IMG/VR virus record: IMGVR_UViG_3300030102_002373
Coordinates: 1 to 38,139 of that record
Source: a virus
Direction: 5' to 3' (one strand)
Length of the DNA stretch: 38,139 bases
Of this stretch, positions 4,291 through 38,054 are shown piece after piece. Within the stretch, counting starts at the first letter, position 1; every line of letters begins with the position of its first letter. Below the pieces are notes generated by a model. The model made no database searches. It was not told the origin of the DNA and was given only the letters and a program-made list of their open reading frames with translations. Made by a program: the position numbers and the translations under genes.

Positions 4291-4298
4291 TATATCTC

Positions 4299-5711: not shown

Positions 5712-5726
5712 CTAATTATCCTCCAC

Positions 5727-6755
5727 TTATGAATCTTGACAAGGTAACACAACTACTTTTTCTTCTTCCATTCTAACAGCACCGAACTCTGCTTTCATGT
5801 AAGCGTAATAGTTGAACGATTTATCAGCTCTTTCACTAATTTTTGAAGTTAGATCAGGGTTGATTTCCAATAATCCTGCGTCAGGCATAAATGCATAACA
5901 TAGGCGAGTGCTATCTGTTGAAGCAGATTTCCACTTACCAACGCCTGTATCAATGCTTGCATCGTCTAACTCGAAGTATGCTTCTAATGTTTCTGAAGTA
6001 GAAGTGTAACTTGCTTCAAGTGTTTCGATTTCAGCAGGTGTTCTATTTATGAATGGAACAATGTTGCTGATGCAGAATTTCGCACCCATGTAGTCATAAA
6101 TAGTTCCGACTTGTGAATCTAATGGTCTAGAAGCAGTGTAATCAAAGTTGATGAAGTTATCATCTTCCATAATGTGCTTCCATTGTGTCCATGTGATTTT
6201 GAATATAGGTGCAGTAGTGTCAACATCTACAGAATTATTTCCGAACTTTTCTAAAACAGAAAGGAACTTCTTATAAGTTAACTTGTAGTTGTTGTCAGCA
6301 GCAGCATCAACACTAACAGCATTAGCTTGGTCTTTTAGTTTAGTATCAGTTTCACCTTCAACTCCACCTTTAGCAGCACCTAATAATGCTCTGTCGATGA
6401 TGATGTCTTCTTGACGCATAAATTTATTCTTCATAATTTGAAGTTTAGCGTTTCGAGGATCAACACCCATTTTGCTTACGTCAGCCCAATCCATGAACTG
6501 TCCATCTTGGTAAGCAATTCTTGATGTACGTCTACGACTGTAGTCGATATCCGATACTGGAGAATCTCCGAATCGGTTAGTAACTTTAGATGGTAATCCA
6601 CCACCAGTAGTTCTTTGGTAAACGCCTTCTTTACGAAACAAGTCGCCTGTAGCTAACTGAACGTAAGGACGCATCTTACCACCTTTGACTTCAACAGTTT
6701 CTCTAATAGCTCTGTCAAAACCAATTACATAAGTATTAAGCAGATTTCCCGCCAT
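5727..6755 (-). CDS. Major capsid protein
   Basis: A 342-aa protein following the scaffold gene, the normal head-module order. Its N-terminus has the stretch about YVQLATGDLFRKEGVYQRTTGGGLPSKVTNRFGDSPVSDIDYSRRR (about 27-73), like phage capsid proteins with an N-arm followed by an extended loop. Later come RQEDIIIDRALLGAAKGG (about 115-132) and a C-terminal part with FGAVRMEEEKVVVLPC. 'FGAVRMEEEKVV' resembles the end of HK97-fold capsids of marine podoviruses, where the last strand carries an acidic/valine motif. No protease gene lies nearby. A 168-bp leader with hairpins precedes the GGGGGT ribosome site and suggests separate, strong expression. Confidence 0.85.
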   Translation of the reverse strand: MAGNLLNTYVIGFDRAIRETVEVKGGKMRPYVQLATGDLFRKEGVYQRTTGGGLPSKVTNRFGDSPVSDIDYSRRRTSRIAYQDGQFMDWADVSKMGVDPRNAKLQIMKNKFMRQEDIIIDRALLGAAKGGVEGETDTKLKDQANAVSVDAAADNNYKLTYKKFLSVLEKFGNNSVDVDTTAPIFKITWTQWKHIMEDDNFINFDYTASRPLDSQVGTIYDYMGAKFCISNIVPFINRTPAEIETLEASYTSTSETLEAYFELDDASIDTGVGKWKSASTDSTRLCYAFMPDAGLLEINPDLTSKISERADKSFNYYAYMKAEFGAVRMEEEKVVVLPCQDS

Positions 6756-6786
6756 AATATACCCCCATTTAATTGTTATAATTTAC

Positions 6787-6825
6787 GTTTGTCGGCCTTG
6801 AGTGTCCACACTTTGTGGGTCAAAC
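6787..6825 (-). other. Structured leader of capsid mRNA
   Basis: In the 168-bp gap before the capsid gene, GTTTG (6787-6791) pairs with CAAAC (6821-6825). Inside this, CCACA (6806-6810) pairs with TGTGG (6814-6818) across CTT. The minus-strand transcript would hold this two-part hairpin about 30 nt before the ribosome site. It lacks a U run, so it is not a normal terminator. It may protect the capsid mRNA or mark a processing site. Confidence 0.45.
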
Positions 6826-6897
6826 CTAATATTAGCTTTTCAGCTTTGATTCTACACCAGGCTCACAAGGAGGTATCTGTTCTTAAATCTGTTTTTT

Positions 6898-6927
6898 GCT
6901 ATACAAAATTATCTATATTTTTGTCAA
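6898..6927 (-). promoter_or_regulatory. Possible sigma70-like promoter for capsid genes
   Basis: On the minus strand a perfect TTGACA (6927-6922) is followed after 18 bases by TATAGC (6903-6898), upstream of the capsid leader. The surrounding sequence AATATCTTGACAA recurs at 26811-26823 before another structural gene. The -10 element is imperfect. The site overlaps the last codons of the scaffold gene. Confidence 0.45.
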
Positions 6928-7748
6928 GATATTTTCTCTAATAAGCTACTTCTTTCTTTAATCCAGTTTTGATAAGTAATATCACTAGTATTTCCAGTGT
7001 ATTGCATCATCTTCTGTTCTATTTCAGAAAGTTGATCACTTAAAGATGCAAAATTGTCATTATTTCTTTGTTGAATAAGATCATCATTATCAATCAAAGG
7101 TAAAACATTATTATACAATGCTTGAATTAATTGCACGTTATTTCCAATAGAAGGATCATCCATAAGTTCTTCTAATCCCATAAATTCCATAACTTCAGCA
7201 ACTTTACTCATATTGTAATCAAATTGATCACCTTTCCATATTTCTCTTAATTCAGCTTCAGCATCATTAACAGAAACATCATAATCTACATCTTCTTGTG
7301 CTACAGAATCAGCTAATGCTTTCATATCAAAATCAATAAGAGCTTGTACTGCATTATTAGAAATACCATGTTCAAATGCTAATTCTTTAAATTCTTGTAC
7401 ACGACTATCATCAATTTCAATACCTTCAGGTGCTTCAATATTTAACGCATATCCATCAACAGTTGTAGGTACACCTAAAAGTTCATGCACTTTATGAATA
7501 TCATTTTGATCTTCTGATGCTAATAAGTCTTCTAATTTACCACCAACCATACTTTGTGCATTTATTGCACCTTTAGCTAGGTCAATTGGATTATTATACT
7601 TATTCCATATTGAATGATTACCAAGGTCATCTGGTAATCCTTGTAGCCAATCTGCATTGAAGTTCCCTTCATCGTTAAGCATCCCAGGCTGTTCTACAGT
7701 ATCTGTTGTTTCAACAGGTGTTTCTACAGGTGTCTGTTCTTCACTCAT
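6924..7748 (-). CDS. Capsid scaffold protein
   Basis: A 274-aa, strongly acidic and Gln/Asn-rich protein. The start MSEEQTPVETPVETTDTVEQ is disordered, and the body is helical with repeated Asp/Glu (LLASEDQNDIHKVHELL, ELREIWKGDQFDYNMSKVAEVMEF). A coiled-coil end follows (DQLSEIEQKMMQ, about 235-250). This acidic-N-terminus, helical-C-terminus plan and the place directly before the capsid gene define podovirus scaffold proteins (compare T7 gp9). WKGDQFDYN resembles the 'W..d......' stretch seen in many such scaffolds. It has a good AAGGAAAG ribosome site. Confidence 0.83.
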   Translation of the reverse strand: MSEEQTPVETPVETTDTVEQPGMLNDEGNFNADWLQGLPDDLGNHSIWNKYNNPIDLAKGAINAQSMVGGKLEDLLASEDQNDIHKVHELLGVPTTVDGYALNIEAPEGIEIDDSRVQEFKELAFEHGISNNAVQALIDFDMKALADSVAQEDVDYDVSVNDAEAELREIWKGDQFDYNMSKVAEVMEFMGLEELMDDPSIGNNVQLIQALYNNVLPLIDNDDLIQQRNNDNFASLSDQLSEIEQKMMQYTGNTSDITYQNWIKERSSLLEKIS

Positions 7749-7763
7749 AACTTTCCTTTACTT

Positions 7764-7868
7764 TTAATATGTTTTTTTTGATTTTCTTATTCTTTTTAAT
7801 TTACTAGGTTTACTAGGTTTACTAGGTGTTTTTTTCTTCATTGGTTTTACTAATTTTTTAGCATACAT
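7764..7868 (-). CDS. Small 34-aa lysine-rich protein with PSK repeats
   Basis: The start ATG overlaps the lysozyme stop as TAATG, after the GGAGGGG ribosome site. The product is MYAKKLVKPMKKKTPSKPSK followed by PSKLKRIRKSKKTY, so nearly half the residues are Lys or Arg. The codons CCTAGTAAA are repeated three times in a row, visible as ACTAGGTTT direct repeats in the plus strand. It probably binds nucleic acid or the acidic scaffold made from the next gene. No family is recognised. Confidence 0.6.
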   Translation of the reverse strand: MYAKKLVKPMKKKTPSKPSKPSKLKRIRKSKKTY

Positions 7869-8524
7869 TATACTCCCCTCCTTCCAAAAGTTGCATCATT
7901 AGGATCATATCCGGGAATAAAATTATCTTTAATATAAGTATCTTCTTCATTAATACCCATATCAATTCCCATTTCGCTATCATAACTTCCATAATTTAAT
8001 GGTGATGGTGCAGTATAATCTCCTAACAATTTATCAAAATTTCTAACTGCTCTGCTTTTAGTTTGATTCCAATAATTTGTAAGCGTAAAATCTTCTTTAT
8101 TAAAATTTTTATATTTTAGTTCTGCAGCAGCAAGAGATATATATCTTTGTTTTAAAATAGGTGTATCAGCTGTTGCTGCAAGTGAAATATTTTTTATCAT
8201 GTTTGGAAACTTATCAACCCAGTTTACTCCCATGTTAAATGTAAGATCGATTAACACTTCTTTTTGATTTTCATTTAAAGAATTAAAGCCTTCAATTTTT
8301 TGAGCTGCTGCGTAATGAATTCTCCAATCTTTTTCAAAATACTCTTCAAGTAACTTATCATCGACTATATCTCCTAATTTATATTTTTTCTTTTCTTCTT
8401 CAGTCAACTTATGGCCATATCCCATAGATAAATAACCAAGACTGTCTTTATAAACATAGTTTTTGTAACCTTCGTTACCTTTTACATACGTTTTAACTCT
8501 TTGTACAAATTCTTTTTCACTCAT
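7868..8524 (-). CDS. GH24 lysozyme (T4-type muramidase), endolysin
   Basis: A 218-aa enzyme that should cut the MurNAc-GlcNAc bond of peptidoglycan. The catalytic block is E18-x8-D27-x5-S33 in GNEGYKNYVYKDSLGYLSMGYGH, exactly the spacing of E11, D20 and T26 in T4 lysozyme. The third residue is Ser instead of Thr. NQKEVLIDLTFNMG (about 112-125) is the conserved second GH24 helix. I chose the ATG at 8524 because upstream in-frame sequence overlaps the 69-aa gene and looks non-natural, and because ATG here overlaps that gene's stop region (GATGAGTGA). No signal peptide, so it needs a holin. Its place among head genes suggests it may also be virion-associated. The C-terminal 50 residues are acidic and unassigned. 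Confidence 0.88.
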   Translation of the reverse strand: MSEKEFVQRVKTYVKGNEGYKNYVYKDSLGYLSMGYGHKLTEEEKKKYKLGDIVDDKLLEEYFEKDWRIHYAAAQKIEGFNSLNENQKEVLIDLTFNMGVNWVDKFPNMIKNISLAATADTPILKQRYISLAAAELKYKNFNKEDFTLTNYWNQTKSRAVRNFDKLLGDYTAPSPLNYGSYDSEMGIDMGINEEDTYIKDNFIPGYDPNDATFGRRGV

Positions 8525-8726
8525 CTTCTGATACCATTGCTTCGATATATCTAACGACATCTTGTAATGCGTTTCGATATGCACATTGTGCATGAGTGAG
8601 TTCTGACCCAGACTGCTCATCAATACCACTAAACTTGCGTAAATCAGATAATACTTCTCTGCCATTTTGTGTATTGAATATTGATTTGTATGCTGCGACT
8701 AATTGAATAATTTCACTTTTACTCAT
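8517..8726 (-). CDS. Bbp19-like small virion/accessory protein
   Basis: A 69-aa protein with the pattern of the Bbp19 family from podovirus BPP-1: YKSIFNTQNGREVLSDLRKFSGI (about 13-35), then AYRNALQDVVRYIEAMV (about 48-64). This corresponds to 'yk..f.t..G..vL.DL...' and 'f..G.r.v..hi'. It is helical with no cysteine pairs. It overlaps the portal gene by 8 bases and the lysozyme start by 8 bases, so translation is coupled. The family usually sits between portal and capsid genes. Its exact function is unknown. Confidence 0.7.
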   Translation of the reverse strand: MSKSEIIQLVAAYKSIFNTQNGREVLSDLRKFSGIDEQSGSELTHAQCAYRNALQDVVRYIEAMVSEDE

Positions 8727-10365
8727 CTTCTTGTGCTTCTCCTAATAAACTATCTGGCTGAACACTACCACTCATTTTTTGAGCTGCATCAGCTAGTGCT
8801 GGTAATTGTTTAATTTGTTGTTGTTCTTCAAATTTAGCTTTCATTTCTTCTCTTTCTTTTTCAACTTCGTCAAGAGATTTTAATGCATTCATACTTGAAC
8901 TATTAGCATACCACACTTCTCTAAATAATTTATCAGGCGAAACATTGTCTAATGTTTTTAACATTCTTTGATCTAATTGTGCCACCTCGCCAAACATTCT
9001 TAATGTTTGCATTGCACCCATAACTTCAAATGATTTAGTAGCCATAGATAATCTTCCTACATAATCTATTTCATAATTAGGATTGTCCTGTAATGCTTCT
9101 GGCAATGGTGGTAATAATTTTTTCTTTGCTAAAATATAATATATATGTTCCATAACAGGTGTAATATGTTCCTCAATATATCTTGCAACAAATGGTGATA
9201 AAGTCATTAAATCAGTTGTCATTCTTTCATTAACTTCTGTAGCAGTCATATTTCTATATTGGTCCAGCGGTCTAAACAAATGATTAAAAAACATACGTTT
9301 AATTTGTTCGTCATGTTGTTTGTATATTTCATTTGCAAGTTGTGGATTACCATTAGGTTGTAATCTTTCTGGTTTACCATTTGGATTAGTTGCTCTCCAT
9401 CTAATAAATGCACCAGCTCTGTTACTCATACCACTAACACTATCGTCATCCGGGATTAACCATTGTGGATTAGATTGTTGTTCTGCTGAAACCATTAGTG
9501 ATCTGTATACAACATTTGTTCTTCGAGCAGTTCCTAATACTGTACTCATTGGAGAACGACCATATACTTCTTCGTTACCAACCATAAATCTAGATACTTT
9601 ATATGGGTTATAATCAAAACCAGATTCTAAAACTATTTTAGATGTTTCTTTGCATACATGAATTGATGCAAAAGGTTTATCTGTATTCTTTTTACTAGAC
9701 ACATCATAGTCTAATCTTGGTTGTATCATTTGTATAAAAGTATATTTCTTTTCAAAATTATGTTCTAAATCTTTTTCAATGTTTTGAATATCTGCTGCTT
9801 TTAATGCTTCTATTCCATATTTTTGTATAGCTTGTCTTATTGTTAATTTAAATTCTCTAGCTATTGTATCTACTTCACCTAAATGATTTTCATCTATTCT
9901 AATATTAGATACAACAATGTTTTTAAATCGTATAATATTTTTATCATCTTCTTCTAATGTTAAACAGTTTGTTCCAAAACAACCCATAGATAATAATGCT
10001 TGAAACTCTTCTTGTGCAAAGTTAGAGCCAATAAGAATACGATGTGAAATACGACTTACTTCTTCAAAGTATTCTGCAACTCTTTCGTTTTGCATCATGA
10101 TTGGTGATGGATGTCTATATCTAGCCCATACTGTGTTAGGTGGAAACATATGTGAAAAGAAACCACTAGCAAAGTTATAGTTAGCTTCTATGCAAGTATC
10201 TATCATACGTTGTGGTGGTTTTTCTTGGCCAGCAACTCTAATACGATTTATATTATCGTTTGTTTGATAACACCAGTCAGCACATTCTTGCCATAAATTC
10301 ATCCAATTGCCAATGACATTGGAGTTCATAGCATTGTATTTTTTAATTATAGAACTACCATTCAT
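8719..10365 (-). CDS. Portal (podovirus head-tail connector)
   Basis: A 548-aa protein. NWMNLWQECADWCYQTNDNINR (about 20-41) and IDTCIEANYNFASGFFSHMFPPNTVWARYRH (about 54-84) match the T7-like head-to-tail connector family, where 'l.n.l...l.p.g..WF.l' is typical. YGRSPMSTVLGTARRTNVVYRSLM (about 268-291) and YRNMTATEVNERM (about 369-381) correspond to the 'yG.gp...al.D...l......' and 'MTAtEV..R' signatures. It forms the dodecameric DNA gate and packaging platform. The start overlaps the upstream stop as TAATG. Confidence 0.93.
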   Translation of the reverse strand: MNGSSIIKKYNAMNSNVIGNWMNLWQECADWCYQTNDNINRIRVAGQEKPPQRMIDTCIEANYNFASGFFSHMFPPNTVWARYRHPSPIMMQNERVAEYFEEVSRISHRILIGSNFAQEEFQALLSMGCFGTNCLTLEEDDKNIIRFKNIVVSNIRIDENHLGEVDTIAREFKLTIRQAIQKYGIEALKAADIQNIEKDLEHNFEKKYTFIQMIQPRLDYDVSSKKNTDKPFASIHVCKETSKIVLESGFDYNPYKVSRFMVGNEEVYGRSPMSTVLGTARRTNVVYRSLMVSAEQQSNPQWLIPDDDSVSGMSNRAGAFIRWRATNPNGKPERLQPNGNPQLANEIYKQHDEQIKRMFFNHLFRPLDQYRNMTATEVNERMTTDLMTLSPFVARYIEEHITPVMEHIYYILAKKKLLPPLPEALQDNPNYEIDYVGRLSMATKSFEVMGAMQTLRMFGEVAQLDQRMLKTLDNVSPDKLFREVWYANSSSMNALKSLDEVEKEREEMKAKFEEQQQIKQLPALADAAQKMSGSVQPDSLLGEAQEDE

Positions 10366-10574
10366 TAGTAACTACCCATTAACGTAGTATCATCACCAGT
10401 TTTCTTTTTTCTTTTTGGTTTAGTTAAGATTGTGCTACCTAAAGTCATATCATCAGCACTTGCTGCTCGTTGATATTCAGCCATACTTGATCTGTCTATT
10501 TCAGACATTATATCTGGCGTTTGTTGAATTGGTGGTGGCGTAGGTGCTTTTCCTTTTGATCGTCTACTTCCCAT
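10365..10574 (-). CDS. Small conserved phage protein between TerL and portal
   Basis: A 69-aa protein starting MGSRRSKGKAPTPPPIQQTP, with proline-rich then Ser/Ala-rich sequence (EYQRAASADDMTLGST) and a lysine patch KPKRKKK. Short proteins opening 'MG..k...kaP.pP' directly before the portal gene are common in marine podoviruses. They may be head accessory or joining proteins, but the function is unknown. It overlaps the 109-aa gene upstream by 11 bases and couples to the portal. Confidence 0.6.
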   Translation of the reverse strand: MGSRRSKGKAPTPPPIQQTPDIMSEIDRSSMAEYQRAASADDMTLGSTILTKPKRKKKTGDDTTLMGSY

Positions 10575-10893
10575 ATCTTCTCTTTAATTTACTAAATTTA
10601 TATAACCTATATTTGTTATCAAACCTTTCAAAACACACATATTCTAATGGTTTAACCATATCAAAAATGTATTTTGGGTTACCTGCGAGCAAATGTACAT
10701 ACCAACAATTTGGCTTGTCAACAATTAAGCTACAACTATCGTTTAAACATTTAGAATGAGTTGGATAACCACAAGCAAATACTTTATCTGTTGATATTAT
10801 CACACCATGTCTACCACAATAATCTAATATATCTAAAAATTCAGATTTACATTGAATTAATTTACTTGCTGTTAAATAAGGTGTTACACCCAT
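10564..10893 (-). CDS. Hypothetical protein between TerL and portal
   Basis: A 109-aa protein. Visible features are the centre GRHGVIISTDKVFACGYPTH, CWYVHLLAGNPKYIFDMVKP (about 63-82) and a basic C-terminus LKRRYGK. The 'WYvHLl...P' pattern with aromatic residues occurs in small phage proteins encoded just after terminase. A GNAT-like fold has been suggested for some such genes, but I cannot confirm it here. It has five cysteines but no clear zinc pairs. It overlaps the TerL end by 10 bases. Confidence 0.6.
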   Translation of the reverse strand: MGVTPYLTASKLIQCKSEFLDILDYCGRHGVIISTDKVFACGYPTHSKCLNDSCSLIVDKPNCWYVHLLAGNPKYIFDMVKPLEYVCFERFDNKYRLYKFSKLKRRYGK

Positions 10894-12278
10894 AATTCTG
10901 TATCCTCGTAATGTGTTACTTGATGTGTTATTTTTTTTCTAGTTAAGTAAGGTCTTATCATACCATTATGTTGGGCCATAAATAGCATTCTTATTGCATC
11001 AGCACCATGTGAATATTCGTTATGTAATACTTTACCACTAACTGGATTCCATTGATAGTTCTTTAAAATATCTATAAGTTTAGTGGTCCGGGAATGAAAA
11101 TATACGCCAGGCAGGTTGCGTCTTACTATTTCTATATCATCTCTAACAGAATTAGTTTTTGGTATAGTAATAGTTTCAAATGCAAACTCTGTTCGTAAAT
11201 AATCTATTAAGTTTACACCAGTAGTGTTTTGTCTTTTCTTTGCGTCATGTGGCAAGTAATGGCCACCATAATTATAATTTTTTTCTGTTAGTATATCTAA
11301 ATAATGCTTTATATCATAACCAGTGTTTTCATAATAATCTATTATGTAAATTTTTTGGTGAATGATTTTAGCAAATACTATGGCAGTTGGGTCATCAACA
11401 CCTAAATCCCAAAACGTATATACAAGTTCATTACTAGGGTCAAATTCGCCTATATGACTATCGTTTTCTAATTTAGTAATCTCATATCCATACACTGAAT
11501 TAGCTACATCTGCTACTGCTTCGTTGAGATATTCTTGTCGTGCTAACGAATATGAGATCATCTTTGAGTCAACTCTGTCTTGAACATTCAAGTATGGTAT
11601 CCCTGTTAAGGGATCGATTTTTTGTAACAGCTCTGGGTTTAAGTTCATTTCATCGCCTACCCATGCATATCGTTTAGTTTCTTGTGGTGTAAGCCACTCA
11701 CAAAACCAATCAGGATGTTCTTTATTAGCTTCATACATACGATATAGCTGATTATTTTTACCACGCATCGTACCATTCATAATAATCCATGAGTTACCTT
11801 CGTCTAATATTGGTGCAAGAAAGCCTGTAACTTCTTCTTTATGCAAAGAAAACTCTGATAATGCGTAGCCATACCCACCTTGGCCCACAAAATCTAGATT
11901 ATCTGTACCACTAAAGTTAATAACAGAGCCATTAATAAGACCAACTTTCATGTCAGTATTGTTCTTATAAGTAACTATTTCTGGTGGAAAGATAAGGTCT
12001 AATAGATGCCCACCCTTACCATTTATTGTTACAATGTTGTTCCATATAGCACGTTCTGCCCACTTACGAGTAGGAAATAAATAGTAATACGAGCCAACTC
12101 TAGTCATAGCACGTTTAGACAGTATACTAGCAGTAGTAACGTCTTTACCATGTCGTCTAGGCCAACTAATCAGTAGATTCTTCGCACCCTGATCCAAGGC
12201 TTTCCAACTGTTTATTTGGTAAAACCTCGGTTTCAGTTGTGGTAACTGTATTCTCTTCGTATGCGTTTGCAAAATCAA
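10884..12278 (-). CDS. Terminase large subunit (TerL)
   Basis: A 464-aa packaging motor ATPase and nuclease. The Walker A-like WPRRHGKD is at residues 39-46. The Walker B/catalytic segment GYGYALSEFSLH is at about 136-147. The nuclease starts with TFWDLGVDDPTAIVFAKI (about 289), followed by LPHDAKKRQNTTG, and the last acidic motif HGADAIRM is at 424-431. These are the standard podovirus TerL motifs. The start is TTG at 12278 behind GAGGTAG. No ATG exists before the Walker A motif in this frame, so a non-ATG start inside the TerS gene is needed (113-bp overlap). Coupled translation is likely. Confidence 0.93.
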   Translation of the reverse strand: MILQTHTKRIQLPQLKPRFYQINSWKALDQGAKNLLISWPRRHGKDVTTASILSKRAMTRVGSYYYLFPTRKWAERAIWNNIVTINGKGGHLLDLIFPPEIVTYKNNTDMKVGLINGSVINFSGTDNLDFVGQGGYGYALSEFSLHKEEVTGFLAPILDEGNSWIIMNGTMRGKNNQLYRMYEANKEHPDWFCEWLTPQETKRYAWVGDEMNLNPELLQKIDPLTGIPYLNVQDRVDSKMISYSLARQEYLNEAVADVANSVYGYEITKLENDSHIGEFDPSNELVYTFWDLGVDDPTAIVFAKIIHQKIYIIDYYENTGYDIKHYLDILTEKNYNYGGHYLPHDAKKRQNTTGVNLIDYLRTEFAFETITIPKTNSVRDDIEIVRRNLPGVYFHSRTTKLIDILKNYQWNPVSGKVLHNEYSHGADAIRMLFMAQHNGMIRPYLTRKKITHQVTHYEDTELWV

Positions 12279-26836: not shown

Positions 26837-29800
26837 CTAGTCTACTGCGTATGCACCAATGCCTGTCATTTCTGCAACAGTTTCTCCTAATATATATGGT
26901 GCAGGAACGTCTGTTATTATGCCTTCTACTGCGTTAGCAAAATGAATAGGAACAAATAATTCTAATAATGTTGCAAACTCATTTATATCTCTTTGAGTTA
27001 CATAATCTTTACCAGTCATTATCTCACTACCTTTACTCATCCATGGACTAACTTTGTATTTAATAAATGTTTTTTGAAATTCATTCCAAACATCTATATC
27101 AGTATCTCTTCCAGTAAGGTTAGAGAATGTAGCGTAGTTAAATTTATTCCAAAATCTAAATACAGGCCCCATACCACCAAATATATCTAATCTTAATTTT
27201 CCTATAGATATTTTCATAAAATCTTCTTCTTCTGGCTCAAATCCAAATGATGCACCAGCTAATACAGCTAATGTAATTATACCAGTCATTGTTGCACCAA
27301 ATCTAGCCCAAGATTTAGCTATGTATAAACCAAGCTCATCTGTAAATCCTTCAGCTCTTATTCTATCTTTTACTGCTTGATCTTTACTGTATTTAGCTCT
27401 ACCTATTTGTAATCCAGCATATATTGACCAAAATGGTAACTGAACTCTAGATAATGCAAATCGTGGAGAAAAGAAGAAGAATGAAGCTGATTGCATAGCT
27501 GCTTCACTTTTACCTAAATTACCTCTACCACTTGCTATATTTATAAAGAAAGCTACTTTCTTCAACTCTGCATCTGTAGCATGAGGATTTAATTCATAGT
27601 AACCATCAAATGCTGCAGCTCTTAAAAGATTTAAAGTAATTACCATGTTTCTTTCTGATGCACCCATTACTGTTCTAGATACATTACCAACACCTTTTAT
27701 ATTATATACTTTTTCTAAAGCTCTTGAGTTAAACGCCTCTTCTGATGCAGTTAATCCTGTATCAATAGCACTAAAGAATAATCCTGCTTTTTCTCTAATA
27801 AAATGCATTTCATCATTTTCTAACGTTAACATAATATCTTTAGCTATTTTATCAGTAAATTCTAATCTACCATCTACTATTGAAACACCTATTCCTTTTA
27901 AACCACCTTGTACAGCATTTAAATATTCTTTAGGCATAGCAGTTCCTAAAAATAATGCTTGTCTAAATATTACTGATATATCAGCAGTTGCTGCAAATGC
28001 ACGAGGTAAAGATACATAATCTCCTACAGTTTCAAAAAGTGTTCTTTCTCTTAACTCATCAATAGCTCTAGTAATTTTTCTTTCAGCAATACGTTGTGCA
28101 TCTAATAAATCAAGTAACTCTTGATCCATTTCTCTTTCTCTTTTAGGTTTCTTAAATGATTCAAAGTCACCTTCTTCTAAAATTCTATTTAATTCATCTA
28201 GTCTTTTTCTTATTGTTTCTTTTCTTTTGTTTGCCCATTTAAAATCTTCTAATTGTTTATAGTATTCTGTTTCTTTTATTTCTTGTCTTACTTCTTGAAT
28301 ACTTTCTCTAAATTTAAATGGATCAGCAACTTGTGCTTTTTTCTTATATAACTTTCCATACATTTCTGGTGGCAACTTACCAGTTAACAAAATAGCTTCT
28401 AACTCTGCTAATGTATCTTGTAATCGTTGTTCTCTTTTTGCTTGTTCTTTAGCTTTAGATATATCTGATTTAGGTTTCTTTTCTTTAGGTGTTTTATTTT
28501 TTCTATACCATCCTAATATTTCTCTAACTAACTCTTGTAATTCAGCTTCGTTATTTTCTTTTGTTTCTTTTTCTTTTTTATCTTTTTTGTCTTGTTTAAT
28601 TTTATCTTCTAGTTGTGCAACTCTAGCTCTTAACCTTTGTATTTTTTTATTTTCTTCTGTTCTTGCAGGGCCTTCTCTATCATTATCTACTGGTAAAACA
28701 GTACCTTCTATAATACCTCTTAATAACTCAATACGATCTAATAATTTAACAGCTTTTTTAGTATTAGTAATTATGTCTGAAATTTTATTTATATTATCTA
28801 TTTTTTTCTTTGATGGTTTTTCTACAGATTTGTAATAACCATCAACTAACATACCTAATTGTGATATAGTTACTAATAATTTATTTGTTTGTATTGGATC
28901 ATAATCATCTGCACTTGTAATTTCATCGTACATATCATTTAATTGATTTTTAAGTGCTTTAAAATCATCTCTTGTAGGTGGACTACTAGGTTTACTACCA
29001 AACAATTCTTCCATTTTATCTTGTATGGCTTGTAGCTTATTAGACTGTCTTGTTATTCTTTCTAATTTCTTTTGTGCATCAGTTTTAGATATTCTTCGTC
29101 TTTGTATATTACCAGCAATTGCATTAAGTATATCGTATTCTGTTGCACTAGGTAGAGCATTTTTAATTTCATCAACTATATTGTCAATGTTATCGTATCT
29201 TTTTAAATTTTTATAAACTAATATTTTTGCTAATTCTCTTATAATTTTAGCTTGTTCTATATTAATACTGAATGCCTGGCCTTTACCAAAACCTTTTAAA
29301 TCAAAACCTAATTCTTTAGCTTGTAATCTAATTTCTTTTTCTCTTGATAATAATTTTTTAGCAGCTTTAGTTCCTCTTTTTTTCTTTTCTTTTTCTATAA
29401 AAGTTTCTGACTCATCTTTAGTTTCTTTATTTCTCTCTGCTTCAATTTCTTTTTGTTTTTTCTCTACAGCTTCAGTTGCTTTTTTATGTTCAGAAGCTAA
29501 ATCAGCAGCCTTTTGTGTATCTTCTTTAGACACTTTTGTAGATTTTTTGTTATTCTTTTTAGCTCTTTCCATTCTTCTTAAAATACCAGCAACAGTATTG
29601 TTACCATGTAAGGCCATTCTTCTAGCAGCAAGTTGTTGTCCACTTATAGAGCCTGCCAAACCATCTGCTCTTATAATATCTTGTAACTCATTAATTAATG
29701 CTTCAGACCTTGCACCAGCATTTATAGTTGTTGGTTTAGTTGCTCTTGATTCTGATATATGTATTTCTTCTATTTGATCAACAAGTTGTGCAGTTCTAAC

Positions 29801-32800
29801 TAAAATAATAGCGTGTTCTATTCCTGTTAATGCTCTTGGCTCTTTATTTATAGATTGAGCAATCTTAAATGCTAATGTAGAATCTCTTTGTAAAAATTTA
29901 GCAGCTTCTGCTAACAATGTAGAAAACTTAACTTGTTGTGATCTTTCTAACTCATCTAAATTATAATGCTCTAATATTCTTTGTATGTCTTGTATTCTTA
30001 ACTGAAACACTTTTTGATTATCAAAATTATCATCAAATTTTTCATCTTCACTTAAAGTATCTGTGTCTACATTATCTTCATAAAATTCTTGTGATGATTG
30101 ATATTCATCTTTATCTACAGTAGGCTCATCATCTATAATATTTTCTTCTTCAGCTTCTTCAGCTATATCTTCTGGATTAAGTGTTTCTTCTTCGATTTCT
30201 TCTTCAGCTTCTTCTACTATAGCATTTGTTTTTTTACCTTCTGTATTTTCTTTTTCTCTTTGTTCGTTACCTTCTCTTATATTTGTTAGTAACTCATTTA
30301 TTCTATCATTAGATAAACTAAACTTACCTTTATCAGTATCTACTTCATCAACTATTTCTTGTTTAACTATTTTATCTTTAGTAGATTTTTTAAAATCAAC
30401 AGATTGTTTTCCATCCCATCCTATCATAGGCTCAACTAAATATTTAGTAGTAAGACCATGCATACCATTACCTAATACTGCAGCATTAAGACTTAATCTA
30501 TCACTCATTACTTCGCTTAATGACGCATCAAAACCCATAGCTATTAATAATATTTTAGTATTTATTCTTTTAAATAAATAACCAGTTGGTGACATAAATG
30601 CATCGTTAGCTTCTTTAATACTACATCCATATTTTTCTGCAAATATTTTTAAAGATTGTTGTCTTGAGTATTTATCCATTAACTTACTTATTTCGTAAGT
30701 GGCTGGTATTCCTATTCTACCTTGATTACTAGCACCATAAAGTTGTCCTTTGTCTTTACCTCTTTTTACAGTCTTTTTAACTTTTCTGCCTACTTTGTCT
30801 TTTTCTTCTCTTTTAGAGTCTTCAAATTGCCAACCAGCAGTAAGCACTTGACTTGCATAACCCTCTGGTACAAATGTTCCATCTCCTGTACCAATATAAA
30901 ATAATTGTTTACTACGAGCATATTTTTCCATATTAGAATATTGATCATTTAATAATTTAGCTATTATAACATGAAATGTTCCTTCACCTTTTTTACCTGT
31001 TCTTATTTCTCCAAATTCTTCAACAGGCTCAACTGGTAACTCTTTAATATATGGTGCAAATGCTTTTTTAAAATCTCCCGGACCAGTTTCTTTTGGTAGT
31101 GATGGAAAATCTACAAATGTTCCATCTTCATTTTTAACTCTTGTTGCTCGAACAATAACTCTTTCTCTTTGAGATATACCACCATAATAAGCAGGATCAG
31201 TTTTTACTGCTTCTACTTTATAACCAGCTTTAACTAATGCGGGTCGTATAACATCATTCCAATGTGGAGAAAGAATATAGCCTGGCACATTTTCTATTGT
31301 TAAGTTATTTGGTTTTATAACTTCTATAAACTCTGCAACTTTTTTAGCTATTTCTAATTCTAATTTAGTTGCTGCAGCAAGTTGTTGTGGTGTCATTTTG
31401 GATTTTTCAGTTTTAGATAATTTACTAAAAAACTGACAAGGTGGAGAAAAATGCATAAATTCTAAATTTTGATTTAAAAAATCTTTAGGATTCATTTTTG
31501 TAATATCTTTAGCTTCAAAATCTGTATTAAATATACCATTTGCTAAATCGTTAATATCTTTTTCATACTCTACTGCTAACTTCCAATTAATTAATTTATT
31601 ACTAATCATTGGAAATTCCATAGTTCTTGTACCAGAAAAGAAAGTAGCGGCATTTACACTTGTTGATAGTTGTTGTTTACCAGCATCAAAATTAGTTTCA
31701 GTATTAAATACAATTAATTGTGATCCATCAGTAACTTGTACAAGATTTCCTGTACCAGAAATATCTGCCATTACACCAAATAGTCTAAAGATAGAGTTTT
31801 GTTCAGCTGATTGTATATTTTTTATAATTAAAGAATCATGTCCTATAGATTTTAAATATTCTTGTAGAGTAATACCATCACTTTCTTCCGATCCATATAC
31901 ACTACTAAATTTATAACCTGCTTCTTCAGCTGCTTTTATTAGATCAGCAAAATCCATATCAGCTTCCCATCGATCAGGACTTTCTCCAATAATATATGGA
32001 TTGTTTACAGTTATTTCAACAGACTCAACATTTTCAGTAACACCTTGTGTATATGCTGCTGCATCTTTTTCTGTAAAAGCATAATATTGTGCATCTCCAA
32101 GAACATTTCCTGTTGTAGCTTTTACTGTAGCTGTACCTTTTTTAGTTCTATAAACTTTATAAGTTTGAGCTAATTGTGCTTTACCTGGTTGATCAGAAAC
32201 TCTTAATACTTGAGTTGACGTACCAGTTGTAGGATATATTCTTCTTTCTATATTTAATGCAGCATCTCTTACATTTTTAGCTTTACCATTTTTAAGTTCT
32301 TCTTTTATTTGTTCTTCTGTAGGAACAAGAGAGTTGCCATTTATATCTACAATACTGTCTTTATAATTAGACCTTTGCGATAACATATGTAATACTGGTT
32401 TTTGTCCCGATGTAGAAACAATAGAATATCCATATGTATCATGTTCAGGTGTAGCTATAGCTTCTACTGTTCCTTGCATTTCTAAAATAGCATATAAATC
32501 TCCTACAGCTTCTCTATCTAATCTATCTTCAGATTCTAATTCATTTTTAAGAGTTGGCTCTGTCATCATTTCTGATAAATGAAGTCTACCTAATGTAAAT
32601 AAAGATTTACTATCTACAATCTCGCCAGTTGATTTGCTTATAGGAATATCATTAACAATTATACTTTTATAAAAAGTACGAAGTTCGTATTCTAATTTAG
32701 CATTACCTTTTGCTACTTCTGCTACTTTTCTAATTACATCTAATGTAAATTGTTTTCTTCTTTCAAAAGATATTGGGTCTTTAGTTACAGGATCAATATA

Positions 32801-35800
32801 TCGACCAGCTAACATTCCTTTAACTTTATTAATATCTCCAGAAACTTGATTTAATTCTGATGATGCTCTAATTAATACATAAGAAAATTGTTCTTTAGTC
32901 ATAGATATTTGACCACTATCTATTAAATTTTCAAATAAATTAACAACACCTATTGATCCATTAGAACTAGAAAATAATTTTTCTCTACCACCATTAGTAA
33001 GTCCCATTAAAACTTTACCTTGACCATCTGCTGACTCATTAAGTAATCTTGCTAATGCTTCTGCAGCTTGTTTAGTAGAAGCCCAAAAATATCCTTGTTG
33101 TAAATATTTAATTGGATAATAAACACCACCTTGACCTTTAATTAATAAAACATCATCTCTGTATATATTTCCAGAAAACATACTGTCTGGAGAATGTAAT
33201 ACAATTTTTTGACCTGCAAAATCAGATGGTTTTTTATCTGTTGTTAAATGACCTAGTTTTTTATATAAATTAAAAAGATCAGCATCATAAAAATAATACA
33301 AATTTGTAATTGGGTCATAGTATGATAATTGAAATTTGTCGTTACCTTCTTGAGTTGATTCTTCTGATAATTCAAGATCAGTTTTTTCCTGGCCTAGTTG
33401 GTCCAGCAACGCAACATCACTTTCTAATATAGCTTCACCTCTTGATGTTTTAGCACCTATTACTTGTAACATTTTAAGAGCAGTTTCATTATTTTTAAGA
33501 GATGGTAACCAGTTTCCAAATATTTTTCTTAACCATGCTTTAATTTTGTTTTGTGTTCTTGGTATAAGATTTTCAAAACTATCAACCATAATTCCAACTA
33601 GTTCTGCTAAACCTTCTTCATCTAAATCTTTTAGTGAAACTTTTTTATCTCTATATTGTTGTTGAAATGCTTTTATTCTTATAACAACTGATTCATCTAA
33701 ATGATTAAAATCAATCATGTCATTTAAAATTCTGTTTGCTACATATCTAATTCTTGCATCTGTTTTTAATCGTTGATGAAATATAGCATGAGTAATTTCG
33801 TGTGCTAGAGTACCCATTGTTGCACTATCAGGGTTTAACCATATAGTGTCTTTCATGTCATACCAACCTCTGCCAGTATGTCTTGTTATTCTTTGGAAAT
33901 CTCTAGCATCTTTTGCATATTTAATTTTTACATTAGGTGCTAATACACTTAATGCTTTTCTTCCTTTTTGTAACATTTTGTTAAGAAATTTTTGTCTTCT
34001 GTTTTCTTTTTTTCTTTTATCAGCATCATCTACATCTTGTTGTTGTTCATCTGCTCGTTCTTCTGCTCTAGCTTTTTCTACTGCTCTTCTTAATCTAACT
34101 TTATATTCAGAAGTTCTTTTATCTCCTTCTACTTCTACTCCTAATCTTTCAGCTTCTGATTTAACTACAGAAAAATCATCCAATAAATCATCTTCTACAT
34201 CTGCTGTTTCTGTTCGTTGTTCTCCTTTTTTTAATGTTCCATGTAAGTCTAATACTTTTTGTATTGCTGCTTTTCTTCTATCAACTAATGTATCAGCTTC
34301 TGAATTACCAGTGGTTTCTAACTCTGTATCAAAAAATCCTGCTTTTATTTTATTTATTAATTCATTTACTTCTGGTGAAAAATCATATTTATCTATAATT
34401 TCATTTATTGTTTCTTGTGTGCTTCTTGTTTCTTGCGTGTTAGCATCACCTACTTGGCCAGGTAAATTTAATATAGTCTGTTTTAGAATTTCATTATTGT
34501 GTTGTTTTCTTGCATTTTGATCTCCATAAACAGCTCTTACAAAAACATCAGAATTTTGTGGTGACATTTCTTTTAATTCAGCTTCAGTAAAAATAATAGC
34601 TAATCTTTCAAAATCTCTGTCAGATAATTCAAGTCCATTATTAGAAGCAATACCTAGTACTTTATTTACATACTGTTCTCTTATTCTATTTCTTCTACCA
34701 GCTTCTTTAACTGCTGATATTTCTGATACTTCAAATATTTCTTTTACTAATGCTTTAGTAGCACGTTCACTTGCTCTTGCACGACCTAATCTTATAGCAT
34801 ATTGTTTGGCTTCTTTCTCATTTAAACCAAAATCATTCATTAACATTTCTTGTTTATCAAGAATCCATTGTTTAGTTTGTCCAAAATATCTACTATAAGT
34901 TGATTTAGCACCACCTACTAAACCCATACCTACAGTCATTTTTAATGCACCATCTACAGCATCTGAAACACCTCTAGCCCAATATATACTTTCTGGTAAT
35001 CCTAAATTGTATTTATCATTTAATGTTTTGTTATTTTTATTTGTAAAAAGATTAGATGCAATTTGTTGTAAAGATTCTTCACCTACGTTTTCAATAGCAG
35101 AATATCCTTGTGCTTTAAAAAATGCTCTTACGCTATTAAGCATAGGCCTTGACATTCTTTTAGTTGCGTATTTTGTACCAATATTAGTTTTTAATAATGT
35201 TAATACCTGTGCATATTCTATCATACCAGAAATAACACCATAACCAAAAGCTGATTGTGCGATAGTTTCTGCTTTGTCAGCTATTTCTGGAGTCCATTCA
35301 TCTGCTGAATAATAATCTTTTAAACCAGCTTCTTTTCTTTTTTGTTCTTCAAAATCTAATCCTTCTCTAATCATCATGTATGGCATAGCAACGAAAAATG
35401 GTAGCGTTGCACCTACAGTTAAAACATCAGCGTTTGATGCAAGAGTAGTAGCAACTTCTTTTAAATATCCACCAATGCCACCAGTTTTGCTATCAAAAGT
35501 TTGTAATTCATACATATTAAATTTGGCGTTTTCTGTTAATAAATTAAAAGCACCAGGAATGTTATATTCTAATCTATCTAAAAAATCAGTAGCTATACTA
35601 TTTGGTGTTTCTTCTTCTCTGTTGTATTTTTTATTTGTTATTTGATAAATTTGTTTAGCTAGAACAACACCTGGTGTATTAAATATACTTACTTTGTTAG
35701 GATTTACTGCTCTTACACCTTGTGTTGCAAGAAATTCTAATACTTTTTCTGCTCCATTTACAAATACAGCACCAGTTCCTGCTAAAAATTCTCCTGTTGT

Positions 35801-36211
35801 AAAATCTTGTTTGTCATATTTTTCTCTATGTTGATTATCTAAATCTTTTTTTAAATATCCAAAATCTAGGTCTTGATCTTCTGGAATATCATAAAACTTT
35901 CGTAACATAGTATCTACTTCAGTATCATTTAGTTCTCTTCCATTTTTTTCTAAAAAAGGTCTTCCATATAATGATCTAAAAGTGTTACGAGTTTTAACTC
36001 TATTTATAATATCTTTTCCATCATTACCTTGCCAAAACTCTCTATCTTTAGAATTAACAACTTGTGCTAATGGATTAAAAGCTAATATTTCTTGTGGAGT
36101 ATTATAAAAATCTTCATAAGAGCCAAAATTTGTATTTATATTTCGATTTACTGTTTTATTTAATTGTTTTACATCAACTGCTGCTGATAATTTTTCGGGA
36201 TTAATATTCAT
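26837..36211 (-). CDS. Giant polyvalent virion protein: peptidase, ART-like, C5-methyltransferase
   Basis: 3124 aa, a quarter of the genome. Order: 1-500, helical with hydrophobic segments (DVLTVGATLPFFVAMPYMM); 560-770, charged helices; zincin motif HEITH (804-808) in GTLAHEITHAIFHQ; KFQLS (959-963); a domain with VLHSPDSMFSGNIYRDDVLL and GYFWAST; about 1345-1510, ADP-ribosyltransferase-like (YKVYRTKKG, YYAFTEKDAAAYT, SQLIVFNT); about 1515-1930, C5-methyltransferase with SPPCQFFSK (C1592), IENVPGYI (E1640), ISQRERVIVRAT and LGNGMHG (1914); KFSLS (1963-1967); an acidic linker; 2180-2720, basic coiled coils; about 2740-2930, the domain DISVIFRQALFLG, ASGRGNLG, FFFFSPRFALSRVQ known from phage polyvalent proteins (LPD38 type, from memory). 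As neighbour of internal virion proteins it is probably ejected into the host. It overlaps the previous gene by 11 bases. Confidence 0.85.
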   Translation of the reverse strand: MNINPEKLSAAVDVKQLNKTVNRNINTNFGSYEDFYNTPQEILAFNPLAQVVNSKDREFWQGNDGKDIINRVKTRNTFRSLYGRPFLEKNGRELNDTEVDTMLRKFYDIPEDQDLDFGYLKKDLDNQHREKYDKQDFTTGEFLAGTGAVFVNGAEKVLEFLATQGVRAVNPNKVSIFNTPGVVLAKQIYQITNKKYNREEETPNSIATDFLDRLEYNIPGAFNLLTENAKFNMYELQTFDSKTGGIGGYLKEVATTLASNADVLTVGATLPFFVAMPYMMIREGLDFEEQKRKEAGLKDYYSADEWTPEIADKAETIAQSAFGYGVISGMIEYAQVLTLLKTNIGTKYATKRMSRPMLNSVRAFFKAQGYSAIENVGEESLQQIASNLFTNKNNKTLNDKYNLGLPESIYWARGVSDAVDGALKMTVGMGLVGGAKSTYSRYFGQTKQWILDKQEMLMNDFGLNEKEAKQYAIRLGRARASERATKALVKEIFEVSEISAVKEAGRRNRIREQYVNKVLGIASNNGLELSDRDFERLAIIFTEAELKEMSPQNSDVFVRAVYGDQNARKQHNNEILKQTILNLPGQVGDANTQETRSTQETINEIIDKYDFSPEVNELINKIKAGFFDTELETTGNSEADTLVDRRKAAIQKVLDLHGTLKKGEQRTETADVEDDLLDDFSVVKSEAERLGVEVEGDKRTSEYKVRLRRAVEKARAEERADEQQQDVDDADKRKKENRRQKFLNKMLQKGRKALSVLAPNVKIKYAKDARDFQRITRHTGRGWYDMKDTIWLNPDSATMGTLAHEITHAIFHQRLKTDARIRYVANRILNDMIDFNHLDESVVIRIKAFQQQYRDKKVSLKDLDEEGLAELVGIMVDSFENLIPRTQNKIKAWLRKIFGNWLPSLKNNETALKMLQVIGAKTSRGEAILESDVALLDQLGQEKTDLELSEESTQEGNDKFQLSYYDPITNLYYFYDADLFNLYKKLGHLTTDKKPSDFAGQKIVLHSPDSMFSGNIYRDDVLLIKGQGGVYYPIKYLQQGYFWASTKQAAEALARLLNESADGQGKVLMGLTNGGREKLFSSSNGSIGVVNLFENLIDSGQISMTKEQFSYVLIRASSELNQVSGDINKVKGMLAGRYIDPVTKDPISFERRKQFTLDVIRKVAEVAKGNAKLEYELRTFYKSIIVNDIPISKSTGEIVDSKSLFTLGRLHLSEMMTEPTLKNELESEDRLDREAVGDLYAILEMQGTVEAIATPEHDTYGYSIVSTSGQKPVLHMLSQRSNYKDSIVDINGNSLVPTEEQIKEELKNGKAKNVRDAALNIERRIYPTTGTSTQVLRVSDQPGKAQLAQTYKVYRTKKGTATVKATTGNVLGDAQYYAFTEKDAAAYTQGVTENVESVEITVNNPYIIGESPDRWEADMDFADLIKAAEEAGYKFSSVYGSEESDGITLQEYLKSIGHDSLIIKNIQSAEQNSIFRLFGVMADISGTGNLVQVTDGSQLIVFNTETNFDAGKQQLSTSVNAATFFSGTRTMEFPMISNKLINWKLAVEYEKDINDLANGIFNTDFEAKDITKMNPKDFLNQNLEFMHFSPPCQFFSKLSKTEKSKMTPQQLAAATKLELEIAKKVAEFIEVIKPNNLTIENVPGYILSPHWNDVIRPALVKAGYKVEAVKTDPAYYGGISQRERVIVRATRVKNEDGTFVDFPSLPKETGPGDFKKAFAPYIKELPVEPVEEFGEIRTGKKGEGTFHVIIAKLLNDQYSNMEKYARSKQLFYIGTGDGTFVPEGYASQVLTAGWQFEDSKREEKDKVGRKVKKTVKRGKDKGQLYGASNQGRIGIPATYEISKLMDKYSRQQSLKIFAEKYGCSIKEANDAFMSPTGYLFKRINTKILLIAMGFDASLSEVMSDRLSLNAAVLGNGMHGLTTKYLVEPMIGWDGKQSVDFKKSTKDKIVKQEIVDEVDTDKGKFSLSNDRINELLTNIREGNEQREKENTEGKKTNAIVEEAEEEIEEETLNPEDIAEEAEEENIIDDEPTVDKDEYQSSQEFYEDNVDTDTLSEDEKFDDNFDNQKVFQLRIQDIQRILEHYNLDELERSQQVKFSTLLAEAAKFLQRDSTLAFKIAQSINKEPRALTGIEHAIILVRTAQLVDQIEEIHISESRATKPTTINAGARSEALINELQDIIRADGLAGSISGQQLAARRMALHGNNTVAGILRRMERAKKNNKKSTKVSKEDTQKAADLASEHKKATEAVEKKQKEIEAERNKETKDESETFIEKEKKKRGTKAAKKLLSREKEIRLQAKELGFDLKGFGKGQAFSINIEQAKIIRELAKILVYKNLKRYDNIDNIVDEIKNALPSATEYDILNAIAGNIQRRRISKTDAQKKLERITRQSNKLQAIQDKMEELFGSKPSSPPTRDDFKALKNQLNDMYDEITSADDYDPIQTNKLLVTISQLGMLVDGYYKSVEKPSKKKIDNINKISDIITNTKKAVKLLDRIELLRGIIEGTVLPVDNDREGPARTEENKKIQRLRARVAQLEDKIKQDKKDKKEKETKENNEAELQELVREILGWYRKNKTPKEKKPKSDISKAKEQAKREQRLQDTLAELEAILLTGKLPPEMYGKLYKKKAQVADPFKFRESIQEVRQEIKETEYYKQLEDFKWANKRKETIRKRLDELNRILEEGDFESFKKPKREREMDQELLDLLDAQRIAERKITRAIDELRERTLFETVGDYVSLPRAFAATADISVIFRQALFLGTAMPKEYLNAVQGGLKGIGVSIVDGRLEFTDKIAKDIMLTLENDEMHFIREKAGLFFSAIDTGLTASEEAFNSRALEKVYNIKGVGNVSRTVMGASERNMVITLNLLRAAAFDGYYELNPHATDAELKKVAFFINIASGRGNLGKSEAAMQSASFFFFSPRFALSRVQLPFWSIYAGLQIGRAKYSKDQAVKDRIRAEGFTDELGLYIAKSWARFGATMTGIITLAVLAGASFGFEPEEEDFMKISIGKLRLDIFGGMGPVFRFWNKFNYATFSNLTGRDTDIDVWNEFQKTFIKYKVSPWMSKGSEIMTGKDYVTQRDINEFATLLELFVPIHFANAVEGIITDVPAPYILGETVAEMTGIGAYAVD

Positions 36212-38054
36212 CGATTATAAACTCACCTGCTTTTAGTAATTCATCCAAACTGTTAAATGCTTTATCTTCATAAGTAGTTGGTGTTTTAATATATCTACTA
36301 GCTGATCTAACACCTAATGATTCTTTCATAATGTAATCACCAGTATAATTCCAATAGTCTGAAAAAGTATTATCTAAATATTTATTCATAACCATTAAAT
36401 TATGTTTACTTTTAAATAGATTGCCATTTTTATCAAAAATTAATCTATTACTTATATTTACATTTTTAAAAGTTGCATTATTTTTTATGTAAGATTCTGA
36501 ATTATTCATAAAATCTTCTATAGTAATTTTTTCTTTATTTAACAATCCTTGTAATGTATCTTCATTATATTCACGATCATTTTTTAATTTTGATGATACA
36601 GCTGTAGGTACATTTAACATACTACTTGAAAATTTATCTATTGGCATATTATTAGAAGCGTTATCATAAGTAGACCATGTAAGTTGCCATAACCATTGTG
36701 TATCTCTTCTATATCTATTATTTCTATTAGAAAAACCTCCTTTTCCTAATGTTATAGCATTAAGTAAATCATCACCAAAACTTCGTGGATTATCATTTGA
36801 TGCAAATGCTTGAAATGTTTCGCCTTGCTTCATACTATTTGCAATGTAATCTAAATAATAATATTGAATATCAGCTGGTAAACCACTGTCCATAATTTCG
36901 TTAACAAGATTTTTAGTCATATCTTGTAAATCTTTGTTTTTGTATTTGTATTGATTATTACCTTCTGTAGGCATATAATATTCTTTTAACAATTTATTCA
37001 TTCCATCTTGTAATTCATTTAATCCTATATCATTAAAAGCCCCAGCAAGACTTATTTCATTCATTTCACTATCTTCATCAGCAACAAATTTTGCAATTCG
37101 CATATTCATTGCACGATTATACATTGTAACTAATGATTTTTTAAGATTTTCATCACCACCAAGATTTAACCTTTCTATATCATCTAATGTAAATACACCA
37201 TAAATACTAGTATCTCCTGTACCCATAGCTATTTCATTTATTCGATCTACTGCAAATTTATAATTATCAGCTTTAATAGTTTTAGTAAATTCTTCAACTT
37301 GACCAAAAACATTTGATAAAACTGCTCTTTGTATTTCTGGTGGTAAAGCTTTATATATTTCATTTTTTTCCATTTCATCAACTTGTAATTGATTAGTCCA
37401 GGATTCTAACATTCCAGTTTCTGTATTAATATGTCCTTTTTCAAAATATGCAACTGTAGCATCATTTAAAATACTATTATAACTTTCATCATCAATACCT
37501 TGATCAAATTTCAACTCATCTAACATAGCCTTACCACTAGCATAATCACCACTAATAATCATATTAACAGCAGTATTTTTAAGTGTTGTTATTTTGTTTT
37601 TAGTTTGAAATTCTATTTCAGCAATTGCTTGTTCAGACCTAATATTATCAAATTCTTGTTCAGCTTCTCTAACTAATTCTGCTCTAATTCTTTTAGAGTA
37701 TTTTTTTTCTGATAATCTTTGTTTAAATTTTTCTATTTCTGGCTCAATATAATCAGCTTGAAAATCATAAGGTTTACCTTGTGTTTGATCTCTAAACTTT
37801 ATACCACCTTGTACTAAATTTAATTTAAAATCTCTAACTTCATTTCCAAAATCTGCCATTGCAGCTTCATCTACTAAAGTTTCATAATTTGTAATAGCTT
37901 GTGCAACACCCTCTGTTAAATTTTCCATACCTTGTATTTCTACATTAGCAGTTCTAGCTAATGCTGCTGATTCACTAGATAAATCTAACATCATACCTTG
38001 TGGTGTTTCTGCACTTACTCTTGTTTGTTGTTTATATAATGGTATCTCTGGCAT
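36201..38054 (-). CDS. Large internal virion protein
   Basis: A 617-aa protein; its first 14 bases lie in the terminal overlap, so the gene spans the circle junction. MPEIPLYKQQTRVSAETPQG is a familiar opening for podovirus internal proteins ('M..iP.y..qv'). The rest is helical and charged: AIAEIEFQTKNKITTLKNTA (about 140-160), then many Asn-rich helices. It lies between the small internal protein and the giant protein, the place of T7 gp15. It likely forms part of the ejection core. No enzymatic motif was found. Confidence 0.75.
   Translation of the reverse strand: MPEIPLYKQQTRVSAETPQGMMLDLSSESAALARTANVEIQGMENLTEGVAQAITNYETLVDEAAMADFGNEVRDFKLNLVQGGIKFRDQTQGKPYDFQADYIEPEIEKFKQRLSEKKYSKRIRAELVREAEQEFDNIRSEQAIAEIEFQTKNKITTLKNTAVNMIISGDYASGKAMLDELKFDQGIDDESYNSILNDATVAYFEKGHINTETGMLESWTNQLQVDEMEKNEIYKALPPEIQRAVLSNVFGQVEEFTKTIKADNYKFAVDRINEIAMGTGDTSIYGVFTLDDIERLNLGGDENLKKSLVTMYNRAMNMRIAKFVADEDSEMNEISLAGAFNDIGLNELQDGMNKLLKEYYMPTEGNNQYKYKNKDLQDMTKNLVNEIMDSGLPADIQYYYLDYIANSMKQGETFQAFASNDNPRSFGDDLLNAITLGKGGFSNRNNRYRRDTQWLWQLTWSTYDNASNNMPIDKFSSSMLNVPTAVSSKLKNDREYNEDTLQGLLNKEKITIEDFMNNSESYIKNNATFKNVNISNRLIFDKNGNLFKSKHNLMVMNKYLDNTFSDYWNYTGDYIMKESLGVRSASRYIKTPTTYEDKAFNSLDELLKAGEFIIDEY

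Follow-up and report, generated by a model that had tools for sequence, protein, structure and literature searches.

One gene, which takes up 25% of the genome, encodes a 3124-aa protein (the giant) that joins a zincin-like module, an exchangeable segment and a C5 cytosine DNA methyltransferase in a single chain. We analyzed the IMG/VR virus record IMGVR_UViG_3300030102_002373 over its full length of 38,139 bases (the window), and we read the giant as the largest of three ejection proteins of a T7/N4-like podovirus, a delivery vehicle with a payload, at a probability of about 0.6. What we observe directly is the order of the genes and of the domains, the family and fold of the methyltransferase, its conservation, and the exchange of cassettes.

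Genomic setting of the giant gene

The contig ends carry a near-exact direct repeat of 99 bases (98 of 99 agree, and the mismatch falls in a run of T), so we take the window to be near-complete. It contains no tRNA genes. As the preliminary description had stated, positions 26837-36211 form one open frame of 3124 aa, and the strand is minus (Table 1). TerL comes first among the late genes and is followed by portal, lysozyme, protease-like protein, capsid, tail A, tail B, the phrog_418 internal virion protein, the 617-aa protein and, last, the giant. Across the terminal repeat, the internal virion protein gene and the 617-aa gene share the bases TAATG, in which the stop codon of the former overlaps the start codon of the latter. 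Counterparts of the 617-aa gene, ORFs of 593-726 aa, stand before the giant in contigs L033, L034 and L035, and the 617-aa product is probably a second ejection protein. HTVC035P and a Manatee Spring podovirus, which have related portals, show the same order with two to three large genes at the ejection position. We presume that the giant's gene position is that of T7 gp16; by gene order, it is also where N4 has its ejected 3500-aa RNA polymerase.

The Manatee Spring gene at the ejection position (L029 30457-34299; MW202898) is labeled as a type I restriction enzyme methylase. On reading, it showed no methyltransferase motifs and was set aside; the label is probably a mis-annotation. In the window, the product of the tail tubular B-like gene is 1227 aa long, against ~760 aa in Pelagibacter phages, owing to a long insertion in its middle, and gave weak beta-propeller matches (DUF5122).

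Table 1. Features of the window and of the giant, with residue numbers for the parts of the giant
Feature	Residues	Positions	Strand	Evidence or remark
Internal virion protein, 198 aa		14..610	-	phrog_418, 1.1e-14
Structural module		607..12278	-	Pfam/PHROG matches
Tail tubular B-like		607-4290	-	Pfam/PHROG
Tail tubular A-like		4299-5261	-	Pfam/PHROG
Major capsid		5727-6755	-	PF19821, 1.3e-32
Protease/scaffold-like		6924-7748	-	Pfam/PHROG
Lysozyme		7868-8665	-	Pfam/PHROG
Portal		8719-10365	-	PF12236, 1.3e-85
TerL		10884-12278	-	weak match (1.9e-3), but in position
Free C5 methyltransferase, 444 aa		19428-20762	+	phrog_363, 7e-56; PF00145, 1e-38
Giant (P0001), polyvalent/ejection-type, 3124 aa	1-3124	26837..36211	-	single open frame; full-length orthologs
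N-terminal region	1-450	34862..36211	-	conserved across orthologs (~25%)
Zincin-like metallopeptidase module	737-940	33392..34003	-	HEITH 804-808 at 33788-33802
Mid core	960-1340	32192..33334	-	conserved; travels with the zincin
Variable slot contents	1344-1507	31691..32182	-	ART-like cassette, identity unproven; unrelated cassettes in orthologs
C5 cytosine DNA methyltransferase	1515-1930	30422..31669	-	PF00145; phrog_363; PDB 3qv2
Charged linker region	2060-2700	28112..30034	-	29-31% identity in orthologs
C-terminal domain	2700-3124	26840..28114	-	LPRAF..FRQA, SGRG, FFSPRFA
617-aa gene directly upstream of the giant		36201..38054	-	overlaps the giant's start

At its N terminus, the giant has a candidate packaging/ejection region. 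The linker, 29-46% of whose residues are charged, is probably helical. The C-terminal domain, in which GRG (2895-2897) and FFSPR (2913-2917) lie as described earlier, is the best conserved part of the giant (38-43% across orthologs); it matched nothing in named phages, yet is clearly present in L033-L035. In comparisons of the window with the genomes of L035 and L033, identity is 79-83% for TerL and portal and 62-71% for the capsid, but falls to 36-43% for the internal virion protein, 31-33% for the 617-aa gene product and 27-32% for the giant; the ejection genes are the most diverged part of the structural module. Such fast divergence fits host-facing roles or recombinational replacement, which the data do not separate.

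The embedded methyltransferase, the zincin-like core and the exchange slot

Residues 1500-1945 scored 57.2 bits against PF00145 (cut-off 22; E 2.4e-15, Pfam), and the whole giant matched phrog_363 at 3.4e-17 (PHROGs). PDB 3qv2 was found by sequence at 1e-5; by fold, this structure (EhMeth) matched the catalytic domain at 1.1e-10 (AlphaFold model, Foldseek), and the model also matched the folds of HaeIII, HhaI, DNMT1 and DNMT2. Built from a 20-row alignment, the model has a pLDDT of mostly 60-96 in its catalytic part. An ordered PCQ..ENV pair arose in none of 2000 shuffles of the giant.

A methyltransferase profile scan, which covered viral contigs, matched L006/L032 (one contig; 95%), L007 (86%, fragmentary) and L033, L034 and L035 (36-38%); all relatives in this lineage are metagenomic contigs. 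Every embedded copy lies inside a frame of 2858-3247 aa (split in L007 by a frame break), whereas all 33 of the weaker loci examined lie in frames of 267-879 aa, mostly ~345-450 aa. L006 carries a full-length ortholog of the giant (91-95% identity), as do L033, L034 and L035 (27-31%), in which the alignment spans residues ~40-3121 and the domains keep their order. In the tree, the embedded methyltransferases form one clade (support 98/98) apart from the free-standing enzymes; some of the latter have long branches, which leaves the exact sister unsure. Judged by these comparisons, the methyltransferase-bearing giant is a lineage rather than the oddity of a single genome. The other zincin-bearing giants tested all lack a C5 methyltransferase within their frames. 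Relative to the window, L007 has lost 76 bases at 6201-6224, which breaks the frame and removes motif VI, either through an assembly error or as a broken allele, and its end is unrelated sequence. L007 was therefore used mainly for its cassette.

The HEITH of the zincin-like module stands at 804-808, as first described, and occurs once in the giant; an HExxH appeared in 1.8% of shuffles of the protein. Across 21 aligned relatives, the His, His and Glu of HExxH and an EExxAEL pattern further downstream are conserved to 90% or more, which fits the description of zincins as having HExxH on one helix and a Glu on the next (PMC5512222). Family scores were weak (phrog_87 metallo-protease, 2.4e-4; Astacin, 0.0019; M78/IrrE, 0.018). 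The preliminary description had proposed structure prediction as a check; it bore out the methyltransferase fold, and for the zincin a multi-domain model of zincin, mid core and slot gave nothing below E=1 against PDB folds. From its conserved residues, the module is probably a zincin peptidase. The mid core behind it matches no known family, is modeled at a pLDDT of mostly 75-96, and is shared, at 25-33% identity, with giants from other phages. Zincin-mid homologs are found in the giants of Flavobacterium elemo podoviruses, where they are annotated as "structural protein" (the label as deposited). This link suggests a Bacteroidota host; a Bacteroidota-like promoter pattern showed no excess in the window (2 vs 3.7 expected).

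A slot separates the mid core from the methyltransferase, and its contents differ among the six orthologs: ART-like in the window, ParB-like in L006, Cys-type in L007, LPD in L035, LPD followed by Cys-type in L034, and none in L033. "LPD" is a label by analogy, as no family matched, and "Cys-type" refers only to a conserved C, H and D. Between the window and L006, which are 95-97% identical on both sides of the slot, the DNA boundaries around it are sharp, and L006 has there an unrelated piece of ~190 aa with DGNHRTIAA (phrog_1033, ParB-like, a weak match at 0.003). The L007 piece reads GHCYVAAE...HW...DPT (phrog_12251, 2.7e-25, function unknown). It is 58% identical to the Cys-type piece of L034, compared with 32% for the flanking zincin-mid region and 36% for the methyltransferase, so the cassette has passed from one clade to the other and sits at one and the same site in both. 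The two copies (L007 5358-5822 and L034 9461-9883) gave a weak YunG match and possibly have a cysteine-peptidase-like fold. The LPD-like piece (L035 9212-9979, and in L034 and L017), with LRLDIPAY...VVTIHK and DPNWVQIGFNPFRRSFFY, is 35% shared between giants that are otherwise distant.

Proposed role and competing readings

In the mechanism we propose, the particle would hold three ejection proteins of 198, 617 and 3124 aa; for the giant, we infer presence in the virion, injection, activities and targets. Its N-terminal, linker and C-terminal regions would serve packaging in the particle and the passage of giant and DNA across the envelope. After entry, the zincin-like peptidase would most likely release or process parts, one exchangeable effector cassette would form part of the payload, and the C5 methyltransferase would mark the phage DNA as it comes in, or the DNA of the host, ahead of all phage gene expression. 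Recombination would swap the cassettes that stand between mid core and methyltransferase, presumably as an adaptation to hosts with different defenses. The giant could then be described as a chassis with an exchange slot between its zincin/mid core and a resident methyltransferase, in which effectors are swapped in frame while the methyltransferase is a fixed payload marking incoming DNA; recombination at the slot would change, at one locus, the payload injected before gene expression. We judge the odds on this description, with both its parts, to be even.

If the delivery-vehicle reading is true, a particle-borne cytosine methyltransferase would protect DNA at the one time when the phage cannot yet make protein, and phages of only ~38 kb would manage this with no helicase partner of the DarB kind. 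The exchange slot would then amount to a natural, mapped collection of injected effectors, delimited by ortholog comparison and testable against host defenses, and would open the concept of injected polyvalent effectors as a whole to direct tests.

The embedded methyltransferase might instead be dead or altered and act as a DNA-binding, base-flipping or structural domain, for example in holding DNA during packaging, a reading we consider unlikely. The preliminary description had reported a complete set of C5 motifs. PCQ (1591-1593), ENV (1640-1642) and GNG (1914-1916) lie where it had placed them and an R-x-R lies at 1682-1684, but motif I (SGTRT, 1526-1530) deviates, and the reported "QRER" was one residue out of register: in motif VIII, the R-x-R is retained and the usual Gln is Ser in both clades. 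Motif I, usually G-x-G-G and in its SAM-binding form F-x-G-x-G, is FFSGTRT in the window and two near relatives, with the second glycine replaced by Arg or Thr in all three window-clade copies. Because that glycine and the motif VIII Gln are absent, SAM binding or activity could be lost. L007, moreover, has no motif VI, and the fold of the target-recognition region (~1720-1900, pLDDT about 25-30) is absent from the model. These points are set against the Cys, ENV, R-x-R and GN, which both clades retain at ~29-38% identity; motif I reads AGIGT in the distant clade and deviates as well (SGYEG) in the free methyltransferase of the window, whose family score is strong; and dN/dS of the methyltransferase is about 0.28 for the L034/L035 pair, although for the catalytic half in the window/L006 pair it is 0.57 on just 22 changes. 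As far as its residues tell, the domain is likely, not certain, to be catalytically active, the reservation being due to motifs I and VIII. Carboxymethylation of the CmoX type was rejected: CmoX enzymes have Arg in place of the motif X Asn, where it holds carboxy-SAM (PMC12783734), and the giant retains this Asn in its GNG.

The preliminary description had a peptidase, an ADP-ribosyltransferase and a methyltransferase acting together in one polyvalent virion protein. Of this picture, the ejection-gene position, a genuine C5 domain and the conserved zincin motifs have held up, and the ART-like stretch at about 1345-1510 has not. ART-PolyVal (PF18760) gave no match on the window even at E=10, the stretch had none in Pfam or PHROGs and no convincing homolog in viral contigs, phages or plasmids, and it was modeled at a pLDDT of about 30-45. 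Its alignment to ART-PolyVal members from relatives has a sensible register and is weak, its score being equaled by 1 of 20 shuffles. An ART in the slot would be in keeping with two relatives: the giants of L008 and L012 carry a true ART-PolyVal, which in L008 follows immediately after the mid core found in the window as well. The full three-activity reading, with its HEITH module and methyltransferase in place, is on this balance doubtful. That the giant stays uninjected, as an internal core, scaffold or late cytosolic protein whose zincin is a maturation protease and whose methyltransferase acts on new DNA, seems to us distinctly improbable; the host entry of polyvalent proteins is itself inferred and not always shown (PMC5512222), but the giant sits behind an internal virion protein and the 617-aa gene, the homologous region of the elemo giants is labeled structural, a free C5 methyltransferase is already present that would serve newly made DNA, and payload exchange fits early effectors. 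Assembly chimeras could also mimic slot exchange, given that all the sequences are metagenomic and that L007 has a frame break and an unrelated end. Six contigs, however, show the exchange in frame and at one shared boundary, and neither the Cys nor the LPD type is confined to a single contig, which makes this explanation very remote.

The delivery-vehicle reading also has to accommodate the free methyltransferase, which might make the embedded one redundant in the same genomes. The L033 and L035 contigs (40.1 and 38.4 kb) likewise have both enzymes, and their free methyltransferases are orthologous to that of the window (54-56%). The free enzyme can reasonably be taken to modify newly made DNA, with the embedded one acting at entry or on other sites.

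Relation to known systems

The concept of polyvalent proteins, multi-domain proteins of phages and conjugative elements that are predicted to be early effectors (PMC5512222, Iyer et al. 2017), is already known, as are giant virion proteins with a methyltransferase (P1 DarB and JC1 gp69). Like the polyvalent proteins, the giant combines a zincin-like peptidase with unrelated enzymatic domains in a terminase-portal phage: several domains of unrelated predicted activities occur in one chain (a methyltransferase above the cut-off and the zincin motifs), and the packaging element is evident from the portal and the structural gene order. The methyltransferase of PMC5512222 is of the adenine type and in almost every case joined to an SF2 helicase and LPD36; the word "cytosine" appears there in a reference title only. 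The giant's is a C5 enzyme, and no helicase family was detected anywhere in the giant (Pfam, PHROGs, NCBIfam).

DarB has an adenine-type methyltransferase with a SWI2/SNF2 helicase (PMC5512222) and is packaged in P1 via an N-terminal signal (PMC9024508). The DarB-like gp69 of Burkholderia podovirus JC1 (4515 aa, 22% of the genome) gave 51 peptides in purified virions (PMC9144972). The giant resembles both as a very large methyltransferase-bearing protein that is probably packed in the particle. It lacks the methyltransferase-SF2 helicase fusion of DarB, and our searches returned no DarB-type match to it. In view of JC1 gp69, a methyltransferase in such a protein is less unusual for so small a genome than first proposed; what sets the giant apart is the C5 type, the lack of a detected helicase and the slot.

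As a giant gp16-analog of a podovirus, it is also like the N4 vRNAP gp50, a 3500-aa protein ejected with two other ejection proteins (PMC12633501), whose payload is an RNA polymerase. T4 Ip1-Ip3 are anti-restriction proteins that are injected and that vary in line with the diversity of restriction systems in the hosts (PMC12373910) and, unlike the giant's in-frame cassettes, are separate small genes. The elemo "structural protein" (for example MT497087, at least 3637 aa) shares the zincin-mid core (residues 737-1339, 29-30% identity), but has no C5 methyltransferase and different N- and C-terminal parts. We found no paper on a C5 methyltransferase in an ejection protein, in a search that lay outside most subscription journals. 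The C5-methyltransferase lineage of giant ejection-type proteins, with no detected helicase and with a mapped in-frame exchange slot, is new.

In the window, the free methyltransferase gene overlaps a DnaB-like helicase gene (18236-19576). Its orthologs in genomes G024 and G026 show higher similarity over the first half than over the second, so target sites may differ. The metallo-phosphoesterase at 21933-22754 is 98% identical in G026, compared with 27-84% for the other genes compared, and was therefore probably exchanged recently.
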